This document shows positions 23,223 to 35,124 of a stretch of 64,000 nt of DNA, one piece after another. Source of the stretch: Nitrospira japonica (GTDB taxonomy: Bacteria > Nitrospirota > Nitrospiria > Nitrospirales > Nitrospiraceae); NCBI RefSeq assembly GCF_900169565.1, contig NZ_LT828648.1, forward strand, positions 3,446,501 to 3,510,500, in the 5' to 3' direction. A program made the position numbers and the translations under genes. The number at the start of each line of letters is the position of its first letter. Positions within the stretch are counted from its first letter, which is position 1. Under the pieces are notes generated by a model that was not told the DNA's origin, made no database searches, and worked only from the letters and a program-made list of their open reading frames with translations.

Positions 23223-23666
23223 ATGAAATTTTTTCTCTACGGCGACAATGTCAATCCGACCCAGCTCAAGCGTCGGGCTCCGGAACACCAGTTCGTGACG
23301 CTGGCCACGCTCCCGGAACATACGATCCAGTTCGGCCGTTGGTCGTCCCAATGGCGATGCGGTCTGGCCAACGTGGCGCCCTCACCGGGGGAAAAAGTCT
23401 GGGGCGCCGTCTTTGAAGTGACGGAGGAGGACATCAAGCTCCTGGACCAGTTCGAGGAGGACGTGCCGCAGGGTGCGTTCCGCCACGTGCAGGTGACCGT
23501 GCACGACCAGGCGGGCGAGAAAATGCTCGTGACCACCTATGCCGCCGAATCGATCGGCAAATTCAAGCCGAAGGACCATTATCTCGATTGGGTGTTGAAG
23601 GGACTGAAACACTGGAAGTTCCCGGATGAATGCATCGAACAGTGGCAGCTGTACAGACCGAAGTAA
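23223..23666 (+). CDS. Gamma-glutamylcyclotransferase-like (AIG2/GGCT fold) protein
   Basis: A 147-residue protein of the GGCT-like fold. The N-terminal FFLYGDNVNPTQLKRRAP matches the YGxN substrate-cradle motif, followed by the WGAVFEVTEEDIKLLDQFE segment where the catalytic Glu normally lies, and a C-terminal YLDWVLKGLKHW helix. Family members cyclise gamma-glutamyl amines to 5-oxoproline. The actual substrate is unknown. It is 92 bp upstream of the thioredoxin-like ferredoxin. Confidence 0.85.
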   Translation: MKFFLYGDNVNPTQLKRRAPEHQFVTLATLPEHTIQFGRWSSQWRCGLANVAPSPGEKVWGAVFEVTEEDIKLLDQFEEDVPQGAFRHVQVTVHDQAGEKMLVTTYAAESIGKFKPKDHYLDWVLKGLKHWKFPDECIEQWQLYRPK

Positions 23667-23758: not shown

Positions 23759-24085
23759 ATGCCGAAGCCGAAATATCACATCGTCGTCTGCACCAACGCC
23801 CGGCCTCCGGGTCACCCAAAACCCTCCTGCGGCAGCCAAGGCTCGGCGCAGTTGCTCATGGCGTTCAATATGGGCCTGATGCAGCGTGGCGTCATGCCGG
23901 GGGAAGTGCTGGTCAGCGGGTCGTCCTGCCTCGGCCCCTGCGAGCAGGGCCCAACGGTCGTCGTGTATCCGGATGGCACCTGGTATTCCAAAGTCACGGA
24001 AGCGGACGTCGCCACGATCCTCGACGAACACATCAAGGGCGGGAAGCCGGCGGCCAAGCTCAATCCCGACGCCGTCTGGAAATAG
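23759..24085 (+). CDS. Thioredoxin-like [2Fe-2S] ferredoxin
   Basis: A 108-residue protein of the thioredoxin-fold 2Fe-2S family (as in NuoE and Aquifex Fd4). Ligand cysteines are seen as C11 plus C24 and the pair in GSSCLGPCEQGP. KEEGGAGC-like spacing upstream (AAGAAGGAG) supports the ATG at 23759. It is followed by palindromic element copy 2 and moaB. A role as electron carrier is likely; the partner is not identified. Confidence 0.88.
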   Translation: MPKPKYHIVVCTNARPPGHPKPSCGSQGSAQLLMAFNMGLMQRGVMPGEVLVSGSSCLGPCEQGPTVVVYPDGTWYSKVTEADVATILDEHIKGGKPAAKLNPDAVWK

Positions 24086-24105: not shown

Positions 24106-24226
24106 AGGATGATCAAAACGCCATCCAGCTAGGCCGCAGCGAGCGAGGATACGAGGCATACTCTTTTCGGTATGTCGAGTGTCCGAGCAACGCGAGAACG
24201 ACGCTGGAGGACGTTTTCATCATCCT
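24106..24226. repeat. Palindromic element P, copy 2
   Basis: A 121-bp copy with arms AGGATGATCAAAACGCCATCC and the matching GGACGTTTTCATCATCCT. Its core is GAGGCATACTCTTTTCGGTATGTCGAG. It ends only 10 bp before the moaB start, so it would lie in the 5' UTR of moaB. Confidence 0.85.
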
Positions 24227-24235
24227 CCATGGAAT

Positions 24236-24748
24236 ATGACCAGCCACGCCGCCCACGAACACAAGTCCGAAGCACCCAGCCAGATCGGCTGCATGGTGAT
24301 CACCTGCAGCGACACCCGCACCAGGGACACCGACACCAGCGGACGTCGCATCATGCACCTGCTCAAGGACGCCGGCCACACCATCGTGGACTATTACATC
24401 GTCAAGGACGAACCGGCCAAGATCAAAGCCAAGATCAAAGCCGGCACCGCCAACAAGCGGATCCATGCCATCATCATTAACGGCGGCACCGGCATTTCCA
24501 GGCGGGATTCTACTTTTGAAGCCGTGGATGGAATGTTGGAAAAGCGGCTGGACGGATTCGGCGAAGTCTTCCGTTATCTGACGTACCAAGAAATCGGCTC
24601 ACCCGCAATCATGAGCCGGGCAACCGCCGGCATCATCAAAGGCCGCGTACTGTTTTCGACGCCGGGATCGGAAAATGCCGTTCGCCTGGCCATGGAAAAG
24701 CTCATCCTTCCCGAACTGGGTCACATTCTCCAGCAGCTGCGCAAATAA
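24236..24748 (+). CDS. moaB: MoaB/Mog-family molybdenum cofactor biosynthesis protein
   Basis: A 170-residue MogA/MoaB-fold protein that adenylates molybdopterin. It shows GCMVITCSDTRTRDTDTSGRRI, IIINGGTGISRRDSTFEAV, and YQEIGSPAIMSRATAG, the normal molybdopterin-binding motifs, at the family's usual length. The ATG at 24236 is close behind palindromic element copy 2 and lacks a strong Shine-Dalgarno sequence. Confidence 0.93.
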   Translation: MTSHAAHEHKSEAPSQIGCMVITCSDTRTRDTDTSGRRIMHLLKDAGHTIVDYYIVKDEPAKIKAKIKAGTANKRIHAIIINGGTGISRRDSTFEAVDGMLEKRLDGFGEVFRYLTYQEIGSPAIMSRATAGIIKGRVLFSTPGSENAVRLAMEKLILPELGHILQQLRK

Positions 24749-24888: not shown

Positions 24889-25323
24889 CTAATCCTGTCC
24901 GATCTTTGGTTCGGAATACTGCTCCACCTGCGGGATCTTCGACTGCGCATAGCGTTTGTAATGCATCAGCAGATCGCGCACCGAGACGATGCCGACGATG
25001 TTCCCGTTCTGCGTCACCGCGAGATGGCGCACGCCCAGATCTCCCATCATGTCCTGCGCGTCGTCCACCGATTGGCTGCCTTCAAGGGTACACACCGGGG
25101 AGGTCATGATTTTTTGGACGGTCAGCTTGCCCAGCGGCTTGCCGCTGGAGACCGCGCGCCGGACAACGTCGGTATCCGTCACGATGCCGACGAACTGCTT
25201 GCCCTTCTTCACCAAGAGCGCCCCGATGCGGGACGACTTCATGGTTTTGGCCGCGCTGACAACCGAGGTCGTCGGACCGACGCTCTTGACCGGCTTCTTC
25301 ATGATCTTCGCCACTGTCGACAT
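24889..25323 (-). CDS. CBS-domain pair protein
   Basis: A 144-residue protein made of two CBS domains (residues about 8-60 and 70-125): AAKTMKSSRIGALLVKKGKQFVGIVTDTDVVRR, then DAQDMMGDLGVRHLAVTQNGNIVGIVSVRDLL. Such stand-alone pairs bind adenosine nucleotides and regulate other proteins. ATG at 25323 is used because AAAGGAG precedes it by 5 bp; a GTG two codons earlier overlaps that site. Confidence 0.93.
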   Translation of the reverse strand: MSTVAKIMKKPVKSVGPTTSVVSAAKTMKSSRIGALLVKKGKQFVGIVTDTDVVRRAVSSGKPLGKLTVQKIMTSPVCTLEGSQSVDDAQDMMGDLGVRHLAVTQNGNIVGIVSVRDLLMHYKRYAQSKIPQVEQYSEPKIGQD

Positions 25324-25485
25324 GCCCACTCCTTTCGTTCGATGAATCTCGAACCAGTTCCGGAACCAGTTACTGCCCTATTCTATCCGCAACGGACCGG
25401 AACCTCAAAACCTCTTGTAGAGACGAGCACGATATTACCTAAAAACTCTCTCCGACAACAGCTGCTCTCGACAGGAAGCTCCACT

Positions 25486-26418
25486 TTAGAAGTTCAACGT
25501 CCCTTCAACAACCATGACGCACTGCCCCCCCACCTTGACCGTCTGAATCATGTCGTCGTCCGACTCTACCTGCACCAGAATCCGCGAAGGACGCTCGATT
25601 TCGTACCCCTGCTCGATCGTGATCTCGGTCATGGGGCCGACATCGACGACGCCGTGCTGCACCAAGTAGGAGCCCAGCGCGCCCGCGGCGCTACCGGTCG
25701 CGGGATCCTCCATAATGCCGATGGACGGCGCGAACATTCGCGCGTGAACCGTGGCAAACGGCTCGACCGTCATCGTCGTGAACACCATGAGGCCGTTGGC
25801 GCCGAACTGCCGGCACAGCTCGATGATCGCCGACGAATCGGGCCGGATCGATCGGACTGCCGTCAGGGTCCGCACCGGCACCATCAAGACCGGCAGACCG
25901 GTTGAAACGACCACGAGAGGCCACTTGGTGTCCGCGATCGTGTGTTTGGCAATGCCCAGCGCATTGGCGACTTTATAGAGGTCTTCGGTGTCGTCGACGG
26001 TCTCCAGAAACTGGGGCGCCGGTTGTGTCATCACGACGCGGAGCACGCGGCCGTCCCGCACGTGCAGATCGACGGGAAAGAGTCCGATGTTGCACTCCTG
26101 CACGACGCGCGTGACCGGGTCGGAGGTGGCAATCAACCCCAGCGAGGTCAGGACGAACATGGTGCCCACGACCGGATGGCCGGCGAAGGGAATCTCTTGC
26201 GTCGGGGTGAAGATGCGCAGCCGCACGACCGCTGCAGGATCGAGGGGAGGAAAGACGAACACGGTTTCGGACAGGTTCATCTCCCGCGCGATTTGCTGCA
26301 ATTGGTCGTCCGACAGCCCTTTCGCGTCGGGAAACACGGCCACCGGGTTTCCGCCGAAGGGTTGGGTCGTGAAGACGTCGGCTTGGTAGAACTTCAGCGA
26401 GCGGCGTCCGGAATCCAT
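25486..26418 (-). CDS. PhzF-family isomerase
   Basis: A 310-residue protein of the PhzF/diaminopimelate-epimerase-like fold, with YQADVFTTQPFGGNPVAVFPDA, the catalytic Glu in REMNLSETVFVF, IFTPTQEIPFAGHPVVGT and the second-half EDPATGSAAGALGSYL motif. PhzF proteins isomerise trans-2,3-dihydro-3-hydroxyanthranilate in phenazine synthesis, but most homologues are uncharacterised isomerases; no phenazine genes are nearby. The ATG at 26418 begins the conserved domain. Confidence 0.93.
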   Translation of the reverse strand: MDSGRRSLKFYQADVFTTQPFGGNPVAVFPDAKGLSDDQLQQIAREMNLSETVFVFPPLDPAAVVRLRIFTPTQEIPFAGHPVVGTMFVLTSLGLIATSDPVTRVVQECNIGLFPVDLHVRDGRVLRVVMTQPAPQFLETVDDTEDLYKVANALGIAKHTIADTKWPLVVVSTGLPVLMVPVRTLTAVRSIRPDSSAIIELCRQFGANGLMVFTTMTVEPFATVHARMFAPSIGIMEDPATGSAAGALGSYLVQHGVVDVGPMTEITIEQGYEIERPSRILVQVESDDDMIQTVKVGGQCVMVVEGTLNF

Positions 26419-26623
26419 AATGGCGGCACTGTAGGTCAGAGGCGATAGGCCTGTCAAACCGTCGCGTTGGGATTCTTTGGGAACGGAGCGGAGGGACCGT
26501 CGGAGGAGCCGTGGGAAGGACCAGCCAGACGGCCATCAAAGCCAATTGCCGACCTTGATGGCTGTCGATTGGTTTTGACAACCCCGACATACGACGTGCC
26601 ATACTCCCGATTCCATCGTTGAA

Positions 26624-27502
26624 TTGGATCTGATCAACTCGTCTACCATCAGAAGTGACGGCCGTGTGACACGCATCCACGATAACCAACCACCGGATAT
26701 TTCGTACTACTGCGACAAGTGGACACTGTCCTTCCCCATTCGACTGGCCCAAACTCCCACCAGTGCTCTCTTTCGTGTCACCCGCCTGGATCAGCAAGCG
26801 ATCCTCAAGGTCCTGACTCCAAAAGGCCGGACGCTTGAAGGGAATGGTTCCAGTGCCCTGAAATGCTTTCAAGGACCAAGAGCCGTCAAGCTACTGGACT
26901 CCGATGACGGGGCCATGTTGTTGGAACACCTCGACGGAGGCGAACTGTCACACCTGGTCAAGCAGGGGTCGGATGCTCAGGCCGCACACATCATCTGTGA
27001 CGTATTGGACGCCCTTCACAGCTATGCAGGAGAAACTCCCGCTGGGATACAAGGGTTGCACCACGAATTCCAGTCGTTATTCACACGAGCACGAGGCGAG
27101 AAACCGGATTCCATCTTCCGGAGAGCGGCGAAGGTGGCGGAGACCCTCATCGCGACGGAATCGAACAGAAGGCTGCTTCACGGTGACATTCATCATGGGA
27201 ATATCTTGAAGAGTTCATCGAGGGGATGGGTGGCCATCGATCCGCAAGGTCTATTCGGCGAAAGAACCTATGACGTGGCAAACTCATTCTTCAATCCGGA
27301 CGAAGTGCCTCACATGGTGGGAACCAGAGAAAGAATCGACCTGCTTGCGACAATCTTTTCCGAACGCTTACAGGTCGATCGGCTGCGAATCCTTCAATTT
27401 GCCTATGCTCATGGCAGCTTAAGTGCCTCTTGGCACATTGACGACGGCGAAAGTCCGCAGTGGCGCCTGCACATGACATCGCTCATAGAGAAACTCTTGT
27501 AA
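26624..27502 (+). CDS. Aminoglycoside/hydroxyurea phosphotransferase-like kinase
   Basis: A protein of up to 292 residues of the APH(6)/hydroxyurea-kinase family. The catalytic loop LLHGDIHHGNIL (about residue 195) and the metal-binding VAIDPQGLFGERTYDVANSF segment are intact, with an N-terminal lobe containing QQAILKVLTP (ATP-binding Lys). Related APH(6) enzymes inactivate streptomycin, but many chromosomal members have unknown substrates. The start is uncertain: TTG at 26624 or GTG at 26666. It is divergent from the PhzF gene, and the coding sequence has lower GC than most neighbours. Confidence 0.85.
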   Translation: MDLINSSTIRSDGRVTRIHDNQPPDISYYCDKWTLSFPIRLAQTPTSALFRVTRLDQQAILKVLTPKGRTLEGNGSSALKCFQGPRAVKLLDSDDGAMLLEHLDGGELSHLVKQGSDAQAAHIICDVLDALHSYAGETPAGIQGLHHEFQSLFTRARGEKPDSIFRRAAKVAETLIATESNRRLLHGDIHHGNILKSSSRGWVAIDPQGLFGERTYDVANSFFNPDEVPHMVGTRERIDLLATIFSERLQVDRLRILQFAYAHGSLSASWHIDDGESPQWRLHMTSLIEKLL

Positions 27503-27606: not shown

Positions 27607-28845
27607 CTACGCAGTAATGGAGTAGTTTTCGTAGGACTGCACCAGCGGATTGGACACGTAGTCTTCCACGTAGTTCTTCACCAAACAGTTTCGCCACAGG
27701 AGCCGGTTAGCGAACCTCGTGTCGATCTTATGCAGCACGGATACTTTGACGCCGGTTTTCCTCGTAAACTGCTCCGGGCTGACGCCGCCGATATCCGTAT
27801 AGAGGCCCCGGCCTGACTGCATCATGCACTTCGGCACGTGGATGCGCTTCTGCGTCGTGACGCTCCTGGCGATGTCGTCGAACGTGAGCAGGACGGAGCA
27901 GTCCGAATCCCCTCCCAGGGTCGCGTTCGGCACCATCAGGAACCTCGCGCGGTTCTTCCGGTACATGTTGAGGATCTTGTAGACGCTCTTCGCCATCACG
28001 ACCGTGTCCTTCTTTTCCAATTCAAGCGAATCGAACGCGCTCACGATCCGCTTGCGGTTCATGAAGGCCGTGATCGGCGCCTCGGTTTGAATCGTCTGGA
28101 CGTTGGGCAGTCCCAGATCGTAGAGACGCCTGGCCTCGTCCGGCAGATACTTCCTCCCCTGCCGCATCAAATCCGCGGTCGGCTCCTTGATGCCTTTCAC
28201 AGGTGTGAGGCAGCCCATCCAGAGCACGCACTTCTGATTCACCGCCGAGATGGCTTGCGCGTCCTTCGACATCGTATGGACGTCGAACGAATAGAAGTTC
28301 GCCGACGAAACCGCCGGCCCGTCCAGCACCTTCATCAGATGCTTCACCGAAGGGGCATGGGGCATGAGCCGCTGGCGATAGTCGCCGAGCGTGATGACCG
28401 ACAGCTCGAAGTTGATGCGGCCCGGATATTTCGCGGCCAACTGATGGATCTTGGGCACCTGCACATAGCCGACCGTGAAGAACGTGATGTTCTTGTCCGT
28501 GGAGGTCAGAAAGTCCTCGACCCACTCCATGGCCTTGGGATGAAGGAACAGATCCGTCCACTCCATGTACTCGTTGCCGCCGAGACACCAGAACTGCATC
28601 GGGTCCGTCGGCTTCTTGTTGAGGTAGTCGATGATGAACTTCCAATCCTCGTCGGTCGTCTTGGGCGGGTCCAGCGTTTCGCGGTAGGAGTGATCGATCT
28701 CGTAGCAGAACTCGCACTTCACCGGACAGGTCTTCCCGAGGCTGATGGGGATCTTGCCCCCTTCCAGCTCTCGGATGAGCACGTCGCGGTAGTCCTTGTT
28801 CTTGAAGACGGGCGGCGCCTTGAGTATCGGTATGATTGTCGCCAT
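27607..28845 (-). CDS. Radical SAM protein of unknown function
   Basis: A 412-residue radical SAM enzyme. The [4Fe-4S] motif CPVKCEFCYE (Cx3Cx2C) is at residues 40-47, followed by typical TIM-barrel segments such as FWCLGGNEYMEWTDLFLHPKAMEWV. The C-terminal third has GGDSDCSVLLTFDDIARSV, which resembles the GLLTGxD region of DUF512 proteins (a weak, by-eye match). No B12-binding domain is seen. It is upstream on the same side as two B12-binding radical SAM paralogues. Palindromic element copy 3 lies 20 bp before its start. Confidence 0.85.
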   Translation of the reverse strand: MATIIPILKAPPVFKNKDYRDVLIRELEGGKIPISLGKTCPVKCEFCYEIDHSYRETLDPPKTTDEDWKFIIDYLNKKPTDPMQFWCLGGNEYMEWTDLFLHPKAMEWVEDFLTSTDKNITFFTVGYVQVPKIHQLAAKYPGRINFELSVITLGDYRQRLMPHAPSVKHLMKVLDGPAVSSANFYSFDVHTMSKDAQAISAVNQKCVLWMGCLTPVKGIKEPTADLMRQGRKYLPDEARRLYDLGLPNVQTIQTEAPITAFMNRKRIVSAFDSLELEKKDTVVMAKSVYKILNMYRKNRARFLMVPNATLGGDSDCSVLLTFDDIARSVTTQKRIHVPKCMMQSGRGLYTDIGGVSPEQFTRKTGVKVSVLHKIDTRFANRLLWRNCLVKNYVEDYVSNPLVQSYENYSITA

Positions 28846-28864
28846 GGCGTCAGATCAGATTATC

Positions 28865-28989
28865 ACAGGGTGGTCAAAAAGGCCGTCAACAAGGCAGCAG
28901 CGAGTGAAGGTCCGAGGCGTACGTCCCTTGGTACGTTGAGGGCCTGAACGATGCGAGAACGAAGTTGGCGGCATTTTTCAACACCCTGT
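28865..28989. repeat. Palindromic element P, copy 3
   Basis: A 125-bp copy with terminal arms ACAGGGTGGTCAAAAAGGC and GCATTTTTCAACACCCTGT. Its core is GAGGCGTACGTCCCTTGGTACGTTGAG. It fills most of the space between two divergent genes, so it sits where both promoters should be. Confidence 0.85.
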
Positions 28990-29028
28990 AGAATTGATTC
29001 CTTATCGGATACTTGTCACACTGCAAAC

Positions 29029-29289
29029 ATGGACGAGGAGGCAATTTATAAAGAAGTGGCCCACGCGCTGGAACTTCTTGGGCTCACGCTTCCGACGACC
29101 AAGGAAGAACTCGAACGGGCGCGTCAACTACAGCTCTCCACCTGGAACCCGTCCCGCTATGCCAATCTGACCAACAATCCCAAACAGTACATGAAGAACT
29201 ACAAGAGAGCCGAGGAGATGACCAAGAAGATTGAAGCGGCCTACAGTCTCCTTAGCGCGGTCTTGGTTCCCGAGGATGAATCGTCCTAA
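29029..29289 (+). CDS. Small protein resembling a degenerate J-domain
   Basis: An 86-residue protein. The helix pattern (YKEVAHALELLGLTLPTTKEELERARQLQL, then NYKRAEEMTKKIEAAYSLLS) is like that of a DnaJ J-domain, in which the last helix commonly reads IxxAYxxL. The HPD tripeptide needed to stimulate Hsp70 is missing (STWNPSRY lies there). The ATG at 29029 is used. Its stop overlaps the convergent B12 radical SAM gene by 4 bp. Function is unknown. Confidence 0.6.
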   Translation: MDEEAIYKEVAHALELLGLTLPTTKEELERARQLQLSTWNPSRYANLTNNPKQYMKNYKRAEEMTKKIEAAYSLLSAVLVPEDESS

Positions 29290-31247
29290 CTGCCCGCGCC
29301 GTGACTCATCACCCGGCTCATGCCCTCTTTTCCGTCCTCTCCCTCGCCCATGGAAACGGGCCACGTGACCAACCCCGAGACACTATCTGACGCTCCCACC
29401 GTCTGCCGCTGCGCGTAGATCTGCGGCAGCCTGTTCGTCCCGAACTTCGAGATATAGAGGAAGACGTGCTCGCGGGCGTTCACGCGGACGGCCCAAGGCT
29501 GAAAGTCGTTCTTGTAGAACTCCTCGCAGAGCTGCATCGCATCCATGCAGGAAATCCCCACCGGCTCGTTCAACGTGTAATAGTAGTCCAGCGGGAGGTC
29601 GTACTCCTCCTGCTTGTGGATCGTAATGCCGAACTTCTCCGGATTGCGCACCATCGGCGTGTGCCGGTAGGCCACGAAATAGAACAGCTCGACCGAGTGG
29701 ATCACGGGCTGATTGTCGATCACGAACTGCCTGGTCTCCAACGCCTCGTCCATCGTCTCGCCGGGGAATCCGTAGAAGGCCATCACGTGGTTCCAGATGC
29801 CGGCTTTCGCCGCCTGATGCAGATTATTCTGGATCACGCTCTTCTTCGCATGCTTGTCCATGAGATTCAGCACGCGCTCGTTCGCCGACTCCATGCCGTA
29901 ATAGAGGGTGCAGCAGCCGGCCTTCGCCGCCAGATCCCAGACGGCTTGATCTTGCAGCGTTTCCTCAAAACGGATCAGCGTGGTCCACTTGATGCCCACA
30001 TTCTGGTCCACAAGTATCTGGGACACCCTCTTGAAGAGGGCCGGCGGATAGGATTCGTCTGCAAACAGGAAATGCCGGCACTGATACTTGTCCCGCAACG
30101 CCTTGACCTGCTCAACGACCAGCTGCGCCGTCATGCCCCGGTATTGATCGAAATACCCCTGCCCATGGTCGCAAAACGTGCAGCGCCCCCAGTAGCACCC
30201 GCGCGTCGCGAGGTAGGGAATGATCCGCTCCGGCACGAAATAGAGATCGAGCGGAAAGCCGTCAAAGTCTGGCAGCGGCAAGGCCGTCGTCTTCTCCGTA
30301 TAGACTTCCTTGTTCTGTTGAACACCTGCCGCCGTCCGATACATGAGGTTCGGAACGGACGCGATGTCCCGCTGGCCGTTCAATGCTTCGATCAGCCAGA
30401 GCAGCGCATGTTCACCTTCATAAAGGATCGCTGAATCAAAGACTTCCCCGAAAAACCTCTCGTGATTCGGGAGCTCTTCCTGGAGACGCGTGATCACGTT
30501 ACCACCGACCACGATGTGCACGTTGGGGAACGTCTCCTTGATCATCTTACAGAACGTGAGTCCCGCGATGAGCTGCATCTGCGTGCCGATCGAGATGCCC
30601 ACCACTTGCGGCTTCTCCTTGCTCACCGACGGAAGCACCAGCTGGTTGCAGATGTCGCGGTAGACGTTCACCTGCTCGTCGTCGAGACAAGCGAGGAGTT
30701 CCTTCGAGACGCCCGGCCTGTACCCGAGGTTGCTCTCCATTGGATAGAACACCAGCGAAGCCGGATAGTAGGCGGAGGAGATGAACTGCATCGTTTCCCG
30801 GAATGAGTTCAACGCAGCCTCGAGCTTATCCGCCTCGTAGAACTGCTGCCCACGCACGACGTTCTTGGCCTCCTCTGCCCGCGCCGCGAGGTCGAACACG
30901 TCGAGCGTCATCACCTGCTCCAGGATCGACAACTGGCCGGCCTCGTGGTCCGTCAGCTCTCCCCGCTTCTCCTTCATCTGCAACGCCTTGAGGTGCATGG
31001 CCTGCCGCGCCCTGACCCAGATCAGGAACTCCGTGGTGAAGAAGTGGTCGTACATCTCGATGTTGATGTCACGCTGCACGACGGTATGCCCCGCTCCGCG
31101 GAGAATGGCGGTCAAGCATGGCAAGGCCAGATAAGGCGCCGTCGGCACCCACTCAGGCGGAAACAGCAGCATGACCTTCGAGGTCTTGTGGTCTTCCTTC
31201 TTGATGGGCGTTAGCCCGTCGATCTGTACTAAGCCAGTGGTGCTCAT
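29286..31247 (-). CDS. B12-binding-domain radical SAM protein
   Basis: A 653-residue class B-type radical SAM enzyme. The N-terminal part (VMLLFPPEWVPTAPYLALPCLTAILRGAGHTVVQRD) has the cobalamin-binding Rossmann fold seen in BchE/HpnJ-like proteins, extended by a long helical insertion (about 75-200). The cluster motif CYWGRCTFCDHG (Cx3Cx2C) is near residue 350, followed by ESYPPALF and GFPGETMDEA, which are usual in this class. Such enzymes methylate or rearrange unactivated carbons; no substrate can be named. It has a close paralogue upstream (31402-33303). Confidence 0.9.
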   Translation of the reverse strand: MSTTGLVQIDGLTPIKKEDHKTSKVMLLFPPEWVPTAPYLALPCLTAILRGAGHTVVQRDINIEMYDHFFTTEFLIWVRARQAMHLKALQMKEKRGELTDHEAGQLSILEQVMTLDVFDLAARAEEAKNVVRGQQFYEADKLEAALNSFRETMQFISSAYYPASLVFYPMESNLGYRPGVSKELLACLDDEQVNVYRDICNQLVLPSVSKEKPQVVGISIGTQMQLIAGLTFCKMIKETFPNVHIVVGGNVITRLQEELPNHERFFGEVFDSAILYEGEHALLWLIEALNGQRDIASVPNLMYRTAAGVQQNKEVYTEKTTALPLPDFDGFPLDLYFVPERIIPYLATRGCYWGRCTFCDHGQGYFDQYRGMTAQLVVEQVKALRDKYQCRHFLFADESYPPALFKRVSQILVDQNVGIKWTTLIRFEETLQDQAVWDLAAKAGCCTLYYGMESANERVLNLMDKHAKKSVIQNNLHQAAKAGIWNHVMAFYGFPGETMDEALETRQFVIDNQPVIHSVELFYFVAYRHTPMVRNPEKFGITIHKQEEYDLPLDYYYTLNEPVGISCMDAMQLCEEFYKNDFQPWAVRVNAREHVFLYISKFGTNRLPQIYAQRQTVGASDSVSGLVTWPVSMGEGEDGKEGMSRVMSHGAGS

Positions 31248-31273
31248 GATGTACCAGTTATCATGCTACCCTA

Positions 31274-31397
31274 CGGGATGTTCAAAAAGGTCTTGCAGCA
31301 AGGCCGCAGCAAGCGAGGGCACGAGGCATACTCCGTTCTGTATGTCGAGTGTCCGAGCGAAGCGAGAACGCTGCTGGAAGCCTTTTTCAACATCCCG
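31274..31397. repeat. Palindromic element P, copy 4
   Basis: A 124-bp copy with arms CGGGATGTTCAAAAAGG and CCTTTTTCAACATCCCG. Its core is GAGGCATACTCCGTTCTGTATGTCGAG. It lies in the 154-bp gap between two same-strand radical SAM genes, 4 bp after the upstream gene's stop, where a transcript would fold into a long hairpin. Confidence 0.88.
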
Positions 31398-31401
31398 CAC
31401 G

Positions 31402-33303
31402 TCACATCTTACCTGCCAGCGTCGGCTGGACGCCCGCCGTCTTCACTGCCCGGTATTGTAAGTCCGGCAGTTTCACAAGTCCGAATTTGCAAATGTACAA
31501 GAAGATATATTCCCTGATGTACAAGCGCAGATCCCAGCCCGCGTAATGATTGCGTTCGAATTCCTGGAACACCCGCTCTGCTTCTTCGATGCTCAGGCCA
31601 TTCTTCACGGTGAAATAGTAGTCCAGCGCCAGGTCCCAGTCCGGGTTCTTGTAGGCCGTCAGGCCCCACTTCTCTGGGTTCTTGGCCACCGGGTTGTGCC
31701 GGCCGAGGTCGAACGTGCCGAAGCCGAGTGAATGGACGTAGTCCTTGTTCTGCTCCAGGAACTGCACCGACTGCCAGGCTTCATCTCGCGTTTCGCCGGG
31801 GAACCCGAAGAAGCCCATGCAGTGGTTCCAGATACCGGCCTCCGCCGTGTACTTGAGGTGCTGCGTCATGATCTCGGTCGTGGTCGCCTTGTCCATCAGC
31901 TTCAACACCCGCTCGTTGCCGGATTCATAGCCAAAGTGCAAATAACGGCAACCCGAGTCTTTTGCATCCTGCCAGACGGCGTCTTCCAACAGGCTCTTCT
32001 CGAACCGCATGTGCGTCGTCCAGAAGATGTCCATCTTGCTGTCGACCAGACCACGAGCCAGCTTGCGGAAGAGGGCCGGCGGATACGACTCATCGGTGAA
32101 ATGAAAATGCCGGGCGCCGTATTTGTCTCGCAGATGCTTGATTTCTGCCAGCACGTCCTGGATTTTCTTCGATCGGTAGCCGGCCGTATAGCCCTCGCCA
32201 TGGTCGCAGAACTCGCAGCGGCCCCAGTAGCAGCCGCGCGTCGCCAGATACGGAAGCGTCCTCGTCGGCACGAAGTATTTTTCCAGCGGTAGCCCGTCGA
32301 AATCCGGCGGAGGCAGCTCCCCCATGTCCTCGGCATAGCTCAGGGTCGAGACATGGACGCCCTTGTCGTCCTTATAGATGGTGTTGGGCACCTGAGAGAG
32401 ATCCCACTTGGCTCCCACGGCTCCGACCAGTTGGACGAAGGCCGTCTCCCCTTCATAGACCACCGCGCTGTCGAAATATTGGAACAGCGGCGACTCCGGC
32501 AGGACATCGCGCAGCCGCGTCACGGTGTTCCCGCCGATCGTGATGTGGATGTCGGGAAAGTGCTGCTTGATGAGCGCGCAGAAGGTCATGGACGAGAACA
32601 TCTGCTGTTGGAGAACGATGGAGATGCCGATCACGTCAGGCTTCTCCGATTCGATCGCCGGCTTCACGATGTGATCGAACACGTCCCGGTAGACATTGAC
32701 CTGTTCGTCATGGACTGCGTCGATGACCTCGCTCGACACGAAGACCTTGTATGACAGGTCGGTCTCCATCGGCGGCATACAAATGCGGGCCGGCGCATAG
32801 ACCAACGAAATGACCGACGTGACTTCACGAAAGACTTGAATGGCCCATTCTAACCGATCGATATCGTAGAACTTATCATCTCCACGTACGATGCTCTTCG
32901 CTTGCTCAGCCTTCTTGATCAGTTCGTCGATTCTCTGGCGGGTGAGGTCACACAACGCCATCTGTACGTCCATTTCGCCATCGGTCAGTTCGCGCTTCCT
33001 GGAGAGCTTGCGGAGGCGGTCGAGCTGTTGGGGAACCTTGCGGAGGACCTTCTTCAAAAAGTCCTCGCTGAAGTACCAGTCCCACATCTCCAGATTCACG
33101 TCTTTCTGGATGACGGTATGGCCGGCTCTCCGAAGCACCGCAGTGAGGGATGGAAGGCTGAGATAGGGTTCGGAAGGATACCAGTCGGGCGGGAAGATGA
33201 GCATGACCTTCATCTTCCGGCCGCTGACTTCGAAGGAGGTTTTGCGATGGAGCTGGATCAACTCATCGGACGCCCGTTGACCCTTGGAGTACTCAATCCG
33301 CAT
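31402..33303 (-). CDS. B12-binding-domain radical SAM protein, paralogue
   Basis: A 633-residue paralogue of the gene at 29286-31247. It shares VMLIFPPDWYPSEPYLSLPSLTAVLRRAGHTVIQKDVNLEMWD, the same helical insertion, the CYWGRCEFCDHGEGY cluster motif near residue 350, FTDESYPPALFRKL and GFFGFPGETRDEA. The pair probably arose by duplication and would act on related substrates. The ATG at 33303 has a weak upstream site; an internal Met (KMKVMLIF) at about residue 31 begins the conserved domain. Confidence 0.9.
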   Translation of the reverse strand: MRIEYSKGQRASDELIQLHRKTSFEVSGRKMKVMLIFPPDWYPSEPYLSLPSLTAVLRRAGHTVIQKDVNLEMWDWYFSEDFLKKVLRKVPQQLDRLRKLSRKRELTDGEMDVQMALCDLTRQRIDELIKKAEQAKSIVRGDDKFYDIDRLEWAIQVFREVTSVISLVYAPARICMPPMETDLSYKVFVSSEVIDAVHDEQVNVYRDVFDHIVKPAIESEKPDVIGISIVLQQQMFSSMTFCALIKQHFPDIHITIGGNTVTRLRDVLPESPLFQYFDSAVVYEGETAFVQLVGAVGAKWDLSQVPNTIYKDDKGVHVSTLSYAEDMGELPPPDFDGLPLEKYFVPTRTLPYLATRGCYWGRCEFCDHGEGYTAGYRSKKIQDVLAEIKHLRDKYGARHFHFTDESYPPALFRKLARGLVDSKMDIFWTTHMRFEKSLLEDAVWQDAKDSGCRYLHFGYESGNERVLKLMDKATTTEIMTQHLKYTAEAGIWNHCMGFFGFPGETRDEAWQSVQFLEQNKDYVHSLGFGTFDLGRHNPVAKNPEKWGLTAYKNPDWDLALDYYFTVKNGLSIEEAERVFQEFERNHYAGWDLRLYIREYIFLYICKFGLVKLPDLQYRAVKTAGVQPTLAGKM

Positions 33304-33852: not shown

Positions 33853-35124
33853 TCAACCTTTTGCCACTGCAGCATCATAAACTCGCCGAATGGCAGCATG
33901 TATTTTTGATCTCGGCACTTGCGACGCGATCACTTCATAGTAGCCAATCTCCTCGTTCAGAATATCAGCGATCGCGATTGCGTCCTCAGACTTTCTGATC
34001 GAGGTAATCATCGAAGAGAACACATCCATGGCTGCAAAGCGATTACACTTTACTGCCGCTATTAGTGTGGCAGCGATTGCAGCTGCTTTTATAGACGGCT
34101 CCTCTGCATGATCAAAAATGGCCTTCATCTTATTAGCAACGACCTCTGCATAGGAAAAGCTATAATTTCCAATCGCTGACTCAATTATCTGTCTGTAGGA
34201 AACTAGGACGCGATGGAGGGATGGCGACAGATGCCTAGCCAGCACAGGCAGTACTTCTCTGGGAATGCGATCAAATTGCTCGATGAATGTCTCTGGCTCG
34301 CCTGCAAATCGAAGAAGAACAACCATAAGCTTTTCGAGATTTTCCGTTTGATACTGCCCCCGCTCTGCAAGACCAGTTATCTCCTGGATGATAAGCTCGT
34401 ATTCTTGATCGGGGCTAGCTCCAGGTGACTTCGAGGAGACATAGCTCAGGACCGCGTCTAACAAGCTTCCAACTGATTGGTATCGATTATCGGGCTGCTG
34501 TTGCGTTGCTTTCTCAATGATATAGGTCAAACCAGAAGGAATTTTGCTTCGCTCTATTAGCGCAGGTGTCTCCTTTGTGAGCATTTCATACAGTGTTTTT
34601 CCCAACTGATAGACGTCTGTCCTTGCATCCGCACCGCGGCTCCCACCGGGTATTAGTTGCTCAGGCGCACAGTACACACGGGTACCCAGAAAAGCTGCTG
34701 TTTGAGTGAGAGTGGTAGTATCTCTAGGATCTAACTTTATCAAGCCGAAATCCGAGATAACCACATTTCCATCCATCATTCGCATAATGTTATCTGGCTT
34801 GATATCTCTATGGGTGCCCCCTGCATTGTGAATTGCTTGTACTCCCAAGCAGATTTGTTTGAATATATTTAGCGTCTCCTCTTCAGATAGTCCCTTAATG
34901 ATTTCAGCAGAAATCGATTGTTGAGCGAGGGGCATCGTGAAATACGCAGGCAAATAATCAGTATTTTGAGAAATGACCTGCATTACATGGGGGTGATTGA
35001 CGCTGGCCATGAATCGAACTTCTCTTGCGAAGCGCTTAATCATTGAATCGTCATCCGAAAAGCAAAGCTTCAGGGCCACCACTTCTCTCGCTGGTACAGT
35101 CTCCACCTGATAAACGACACCCAT
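33853..35124 (-). CDS. Eukaryotic-type Ser/Thr protein kinase with helical C-terminal region; N-terminus broken by an apparent frameshift
   Basis: The intact frame gives 423 residues. Lys19 in VVALKL, HRDIKPDNIM (catalytic Asp107), ISDFGLIKL (Asp125) and GTRVYCAPEQL are intact, so the catalytic core looks functional. The N-terminus starts at MGVVYQVE, in the middle of the glycine loop. The missing first part (IIDSKYHILACIGQG) is encoded just upstream in another frame, so one base seems to be lost in the C6 run at 35125-35130. The C-terminal 190 residues are predicted helical and unrecognised. The gene is AT-richer than its surroundings, suggesting transfer. No membrane segment is seen. Confidence 0.88.
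   Translation of the reverse strand: MGVVYQVETVPAREVVALKLCFSDDDSMIKRFAREVRFMASVNHPHVMQVISQNTDYLPAYFTMPLAQQSISAEIIKGLSEEETLNIFKQICLGVQAIHNAGGTHRDIKPDNIMRMMDGNVVISDFGLIKLDPRDTTTLTQTAAFLGTRVYCAPEQLIPGGSRGADARTDVYQLGKTLYEMLTKETPALIERSKIPSGLTYIIEKATQQQPDNRYQSVGSLLDAVLSYVSSKSPGASPDQEYELIIQEITGLAERGQYQTENLEKLMVVLLRFAGEPETFIEQFDRIPREVLPVLARHLSPSLHRVLVSYRQIIESAIGNYSFSYAEVVANKMKAIFDHAEEPSIKAAAIAATLIAAVKCNRFAAMDVFSSMITSIRKSEDAIAIADILNEEIGYYEVIASQVPRSKIHAAIRRVYDAAVAKG

Follow-up and report, generated by a model that had tools for sequence, protein, structure and literature searches.

Putative cobalamin-dependent radical SAM paralogues of Nitrospira japonica and their co-occurrence with periplasmic nitrite oxidoreductase in three phyla

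Among the closest described systems is MgmA, the glutamine C-methyltransferase of methyl-coenzyme M reductase (MCR; PDB 9ccb, TIGR04014), which combines a Rossmann-type B12 (cobalamin) domain with a radical S-adenosylmethionine (SAM) core, is linked to maturation of a single key energy enzyme, whose operon it adjoins in some lineages (PMC11796369). MCR is in fact modified by two B12 radical SAM enzymes, the Rossmann-type MgmA and the DUF512-type Mmp10 (PMC11796369, PMC8828468). The two-domain fold is also found in OxsB, TsrM, CysS and TokK, which belong to antibiotic pathways. Here we describe a locus of Nitrospira japonica, in a stretch of 64,000 nucleotides (the window; contig NZ_LT828648.1, positions 3,446,501 to 3,510,500) from a closed genome of 4.08 Mb. 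Three open reading frames (ORFs), whose products we call r412, r653 and r633, lie on its minus strand and together span window positions 27607-33303, exactly where a first-pass annotation of the letters had placed three radical SAM genes. The same genome encodes a third paralogue, r592 (592 aa, 35% identity), and we give roughly an even chance to the reading that r633, r653 and r592 accompany the periplasmic nitrite oxidoreductase (NXR) module as a group of enzymes and mature or support the nitrite-oxidation chain.

Radical_SAM (PF04055) matches r653 at 57.6 and r633 at 61.7 bits (cut-off 29.5), and the two are 46% identical across 626 aa, so they were rightly read as paralogues of 633-653 residues. 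The B12 domain first assigned to each is borne out for r633, where B12-binding (PF02310) scores 42.5 bits, above the cut-off of 32.1, and falls just short of it for r653 (32.0 bits). The cluster-binding motif CYWGRCxFC, also pointed out at that stage, has the unusual spacing CX4CX2C, which in place of CX3CX2C is kept in 35/35 family members. In an AlphaFold2 model of r633, built with 35 relatives (pLDDT 89.9, pTM 0.89), a Rossmann B12 domain broken by helices 69-168 and 190-197 is followed by a radical SAM barrel; these helices, which confirm the long insertion suspected from the letters, sit between strands 63-68 and 173-175/224-228. The nearest solved folds, all of cobalamin radical SAM enzymes or proteins related to them in fold, are OxsB (Z 24.2, covering r633 residues 27-592), TsrM (23.0), AprD4 (22.4), MgmA (21.9), CysS (20.9) and TokK (19.7). 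Sequence and model place r633 and r653 in an uncharacterised subfamily of the class-B cobalamin-dependent radical SAM enzymes; their use of B12 and SAM is predicted, and the best reading for them and for r592 is B12-dependent radical chemistry, most likely the methylation of an unreactive carbon.

In line with the first-pass annotation, neither r633 nor r653 scores high enough for a named NCBIfam subgroup, and all scores lie far below the cut-offs. The best profile matches, aligning across both the B12 and the radical SAM cores, are the P-methyltransferase PhpK (TIGR04479; 149.7 and 126.5 bits for the r633/r653 pair, cut-off 600) and the C-methyltransferases of ribosomally synthesized and post-translationally modified peptides (RiPPs) (TIGR03975; 113 and 133.8 bits, cut-off 281.85), while the profiles of BchE, HpnJ, the ladderane-cluster B12 radical SAM enzyme, BzaD, MgmA, HpnR and ArsL give no more than 76.3 bits where 360-650 are required; for the 35 family members the top profiles are still of PhpK, RiPP and HpnJ type. 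Among PDB sequences r653 comes closest to MgmA (E 2e-5); however, r633 and r653 score 47-60 bits on the MgmA profile against a cut-off of 360, MgmA belongs to other organisms, and r633 exceeds its chain by about 200 residues, leaving no room in MgmA for the large helical insertion. OxsB, TsrM, CysS and TokK are only 14-19% identical, and in r633, unlike in these four, helices inserted over about 100-130 residues interrupt the B12 domain. The PhpK and RiPP matches are also what would favour a RiPP or other natural-product pathway, with r633 and r653 belonging to an rSAM_ocin/PhpK-like neighbourhood and modifying a secreted metabolite. We hold this very improbable, because the scores are so far below the cut-offs, because the genes are near-universal in the Nitrospirales and reach two other phyla, unlike a natural-product cluster, and because their conserved neighbourhood shows no phosphonate or RiPP context, with no precursor peptide, exporter or nonribosomal peptide synthetase/polyketide synthase gene in it.

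The link to NXR is drawn from the r592 cluster, from gene neighbourhoods in Nitrospina and from co-occurrence across phyla. In 10/10 genomes, covering both Nitrospirales families, r592 is encoded together with NXR accessory genes, namely NxrC-like gamma subunits of the ethylbenzene-dehydrogenase type (two copies in 9/10 genomes), a chaperone of the TorD/nitrate-reductase-delta type and TatA, accompanied by ferredoxin, NHL and TPR proteins, multihaem cytochromes and usually a two-component pair; TatA and the cytochromes were named by reading their sequences. In a metagenome-assembled genome (MAG) of Nitrospina we found orthologues of r653 (52%), r633 (56%), r592 (44%) and r412 (57%), and here r653 and another paralogue are encoded with NXR accessory genes, several paralogues adjoining homologues of r592-cluster members (NxrC-like, NHL, TPR and a 336-aa protein). 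This MAG also carries extra B12 radical SAM paralogues by NHL, TPR and NxrC-like genes (loci L251-L254), an expansion unseen in Nitrospira. The 336-aa protein has no Pfam domain and is conserved in the r592/NXR accessory cluster (L074 13275-14285), and the Nitrospina contig that bears r653 encodes a homologue of it (36%, E 6e-56); it is possibly another unrecognised NXR factor. NXR alpha carries a twin-arginine translocation (Tat) signal, and the N. japonica genome has NxrB in three 100% identical copies (G000 C1 759646-760932, 884210-885496 and 2095965-2097251).

Among 198 Nitrospirota genomes, 56 of them Nitrospirales, the family occurs in 56/56 Nitrospirales, with r633 and/or r653 in 55/56. 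Outside this order the phylum yielded a single remote homologue at E<=1e-60 (G104, 28%), and at E<=1e-20 nine other Nitrospiria genomes contributed no more than three, all of them remote. We also scanned 84,980 species with a three-sequence alignment led by the remote homologue, and the best 80 of 304 relatives belong to Nitrospirales, Parafrankia, Devosia, one further bacterium, one Nitrospina and Ca. Loosdrechtia aerotolerans. The last, an anaerobic ammonium-oxidizing (anammox) planctomycete of the Brocadiales, has r633 (58%) and r592 (50%). A tblastn search of plasmids returned only relatives at 24-29% with unrelated neighbours for r653 and r592, and no match for r412. In 294 Planctomycetota, r633-type genes were found in 6 genomes and r592-type genes in about 19, and 17/19 planctomycetes carrying r633/r592-type genes have NxrB at 62-68%, the marker being the NxrB of the Nitrospira genome itself, as TIGR03478 was dropped as non-specific. 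The order r592, histidine kinase, sigma-54 regulator is common to Nitrospira, Loosdrechtia and most planctomycete regions read. An orthologue of r653 was not found in the anammox-type genomes, a tentative label for planctomycetes other than Loosdrechtia.

In a FastTree phylogeny of the family, r653, r633 and r592 form separate clades (supports 0.994, 0.978 and 0.876), each mixing phyla, and r653 and r633 are joined at a support of 1.0. Because each paralogue clade mixes phyla, the duplication that gave r633 and r653 is older than the spread to three phyla; by their sequences the two are old paralogues, already separate when the family came to these phyla, and no recent tandem duplicate. The r633 of Nitrospina groups with anammox sequences (support 0.999), and for NxrA the same Nitrospina-anammox grouping has been published, with transfer between these lineages proposed (PMC3578206).

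If these enzymes do serve the nitrite-oxidation chain, r633, r653 and r592 would be loaded in the cytoplasm with methylcobalamin made from SAM and would then generate a 5'-deoxyadenosyl radical, leading to methylation of, or C-C bond formation at, an unreactive carbon in a target required by the NXR respiratory chain. The likeliest target would be NXR or an accessory subunit before Tat export, with the action of MgmA and Mmp10 on MCR as the precedent, the alternative being a shared cofactor. Modification in the cytoplasm before export is possible given the Tat signal of NXR alpha, which would fold there with the TorD-type chaperone. N. marina ceases to oxidize nitrite when B12 is lacking (PMC8115632), which fits this proposal and is not specific to it. 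A narrower form, which we think unlikely, is that periplasmic NXR or its dedicated accessory proteins carry carbon methylations made by r592, r633 and r653, plus r412 in strict nitrite oxidizers, as a counterpart of the MgmA/Mmp10 modification of MCR, the set having been acquired with NXR across three phyla. The duplicate enzymes may perform the sequential methylation or ring-forming steps first suggested for them; a protein as the target is no less plausible.

Several points weigh against a role in the NXR chain. In the Nitrospirales, r633 and r653 do not adjoin NXR genes, and the paper on the 3.0 Å Kuenenia NXR structure mentions no methylation, which could, however, have been missed at that resolution and by fingerprint mass spectrometry. 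The Nitrospina MAG, probably incomplete, yielded no NxrB. The family and periplasmic NXR do not coincide strictly, as an NxrB homologue occurs in 5/20 sampled planctomycetes without the family and in 4/26 with only remote paralogues; NXR thus does not strictly require the enzyme set, and the link of r633, r653 and r592 to NXR is correlative. In the planctomycetes without the r592/r633 set (L305-L307 and related loci) the NxrB homologues again stand at 62-68%. Transfer of many genes between lineages could give such co-occurrence without functional coupling (PMC3578206), and the function proposed here comes from fold and context.

A small molecule or membrane component would be the other kind of product, and its case turns partly on the neighbourhood of the locus. 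In 28 Nitrospirales regions the gene order is r633, r653, a J-domain-like gene on the opposite strand, r412 where present, and a PhzF-family isomerase gene, after which quinone-oxidoreductase-like, CBS, MogA-like, ferredoxin-like and GGCT-like genes often follow; the quinone-oxidoreductase-like gene is missing from the window. PhzF (cluster 1) is found in 28/28 regions, with or without r412, and the J-like gene (cluster 4) in 26/28. The flank genes, which by the sequences appear tied to the locus through synteny only, are present in 27/28 (GGCT-like, cluster 2), 23/28 (ferredoxin, cluster 5), 27/28 (MogA-like, cluster 3) and 20/28 (CBS, cluster 9). In the window a gap of 154 bp lies between the neighbouring r633 and r653, r412 diverges from the J-like gene, and the three radical SAM genes do not form one uninterrupted operon, because the conserved plus-strand J-like gene lies between r653 and r412. 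The first-pass annotation correctly saw no classic partner here, in that precursor-peptide, hopanoid and bacteriochlorophyll genes are all lacking from the neighbourhood. The lack of context that it implied is not supported, since all 28 regions keep the neighbourhood and both r592 and Nitrospina connect the family to the NXR accessory locus.

The product might be a methylated lipid, a quinone, a modified haem or another cofactor common to these slow-growing chemolithoautotrophs, with co-inheritance alongside NXR explained by ecology and transfer rather than by any action on NXR. The lineages have many transferred genes in common (PMC3578206), the ladderane-cluster, HpnJ and BchE profiles match r633/r653 at 55-76 bits, and the adjoining PhzF-type isomerase is a small-molecule enzyme. 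These scores are nevertheless far under the cut-offs, no lipid, hopanoid or tetrapyrrole pathway genes adjoin r633/r653, and r592 is located specifically in the NXR accessory cluster. We rate a small-molecule or lipid role as less likely than not, and nearly as likely as NXR maturation. The 11-methyl fatty acid of Nitrospira was weighed as a product; we found no evidence connecting it to these genes.

The third gene of the locus, r412, had been described as a radical SAM enzyme without a B12 domain, which now seems doubtful. Its own Pfam matches are all below threshold, and its cysteines at residues 40-47 have the spacing CX3CX2C. Radical_SAM is nonetheless matched by 14/22 members of the r412 family (best E 9e-7), the Nitrospina orthologue reaching 29.6 bits on PF04055 against a cut-off of 29.5. 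In 12/22 members DUF512, reported to be a cobalamin-binding domain and present in Mmp10 too (PMC11659888), gives a weak C-terminal match (best E 2.3e-5), the members scored singly reaching 16.4-20.6 bits against a cut-off of 25. The order of a radical SAM domain followed by a DUF512 C-terminus is that of Mmp10 and other DUF512 radical SAM proteins, from which r412 differs in that its match is below the cut-off. Cys40/44/47 and Tyr48, invariant in the r412 family, parallel C39/43/46 and Y47 of pfDUF512 (PMC11659888). The structure model of r412 is poor (pLDDT 59), Foldseek on that model gave no match at E<=0.001, a result to which we give no weight, and no PDB sequence matched. From its sequence r412 is probably of the DUF512/Mmp10 type and cobalamin-binding, and in view of the DUF512 matches and the Cys/Tyr pattern all three enzymes of the locus may use B12.

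The distribution of r412 follows lifestyle. Ammonia monooxygenase (AMO) genes mark 17/56 Nitrospirales genomes as complete ammonia oxidizers (comammox), and r412 occurs in 0/17 of these versus 37/39 genomes without AMO (Fisher p = 1.7e-12, uncorrected for relatedness). Two AMO-free genomes lack r412, namely G175, which the locus tree places inside the comammox, and G018, a draft in which the whole locus is missing. In the comammox loci (L104-L110, L138 and others) r412 is cleanly missing between the J-like gene and PhzF, including in the single-contig genome G147, and r653 and PhzF lie 1558-3802 bp apart where r412 is present but 105-553 bp apart where it is absent (1079 bp in one odd draft). 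Comammox fall in two genus-level groups, both with r412-bearing members as well; the r653 gene tree unites most comammox of the two genera and the r633 tree does not, a pattern that suggests recombination or transfer within the comammox locus. Since most comammox sequences join in the r653 tree, the number of independent r412 losses is uncertain, from one to three. We dropped the idea that r653 decays in comammox, the truncated copies lying in drafts with N gaps (G108, G191) or on a short contig (G195), or showing an internal partial repeat (G135). Three comammox drafts (L138 in G135, L146 in G191 and L148 in G195) have a break or partial repeat in r653 near residues 528-560, which assembly gaps or contig ends could explain.

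Beyond the Nitrospirales, r412 is present in Nitrospina and absent from 19/19 anammox-type planctomycete genomes. Being kept in AMO-free Nitrospirales and Nitrospina and absent from comammox and anammox-type genomes, r412 marks the NXR organisms that subsist solely on nitrite; it may serve as a genomic marker that separates strict nitrite oxidizers from comammox and anammox and as a lead to the differing needs of these lifestyles. Under the NXR proposal r412 would add a further radical SAM step required only on nitrite alone. The same distribution, along with the lack of assimilatory nitrite reductases in comammox genomes (PMC6311188), would also suit a role of r412, and perhaps r653, in growth on nitrite as sole source of nitrogen and energy, for example in assimilating nitrite nitrogen, rather than in NXR. 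We regard this as doubtful, given that r412 lies beside neither nirA nor other nitrogen-assimilation genes in the window and in Nitrospina, and that any trait separating these lifestyles could give the r412 pattern.

Most nitrate from nitrification in nature is made by nitrite oxidizers, and the set may represent an unrecognised chemical step that they need in three unrelated phyla. A B12-dependent set that accompanies periplasmic NXR across Nitrospirota, Nitrospinota and Planctomycetota would point to a missing step in making or running the NXR system, would give nitrite oxidizers another reason to need vitamin B12 and would link B12 supply to nitrification. In the literature searched, as judged by title and abstract, we found no earlier report of an association between radical SAM enzymes and NXR or nitrite oxidizers.

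Table 1. Features of the r633/r653/r412 locus and its flanks (window coordinates).
Feature	Position	Strand	Description
GGCT-like gene	23223-23666	+	named from sequence reading
Thioredoxin-like 2Fe-2S ferredoxin	23759-24085	+	named from sequence reading
MogA-like gene	24179-24748	+	Pfam
CBS-domain protein	24889-25329	-	Pfam
PhzF-family isomerase	25486..26457	-	PhzF 249.8 bits
APH(6)/hydroxyurea-kinase-like gene	26624-27502	+	177 bits; between PhzF and r412
r412	27607..28845	-	412 aa; putative radical SAM enzyme, Cys40/44/47 and Tyr48; DUF512-like C-terminus 283-371
J-domain-like gene	29029..29289 (start ~29029)	+	86 aa, no HPD motif; weak DnaJ match, E 0.084; upstream extension of the ORF reaches 28951
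r653	29286..31247	-	653 aa; paralogue of r633, architecture alike
r633	31402..33303	-	633 aa; predicted cobalamin-dependent radical SAM enzyme; split B12 (Rossmann) domain, helical insertion, CX4CX2C
Ser/Thr kinase ORF	33853-35124	-	Pkinase match starts at profile position 13

Two genes of the table stand apart from the conserved set. The Ser/Thr kinase ORF, which is not conserved in relatives, encodes a kinase fold that lacks its N-terminal start, and the APH(6)/hydroxyurea-kinase-like gene has a member of the same cluster in one other region only (G187).

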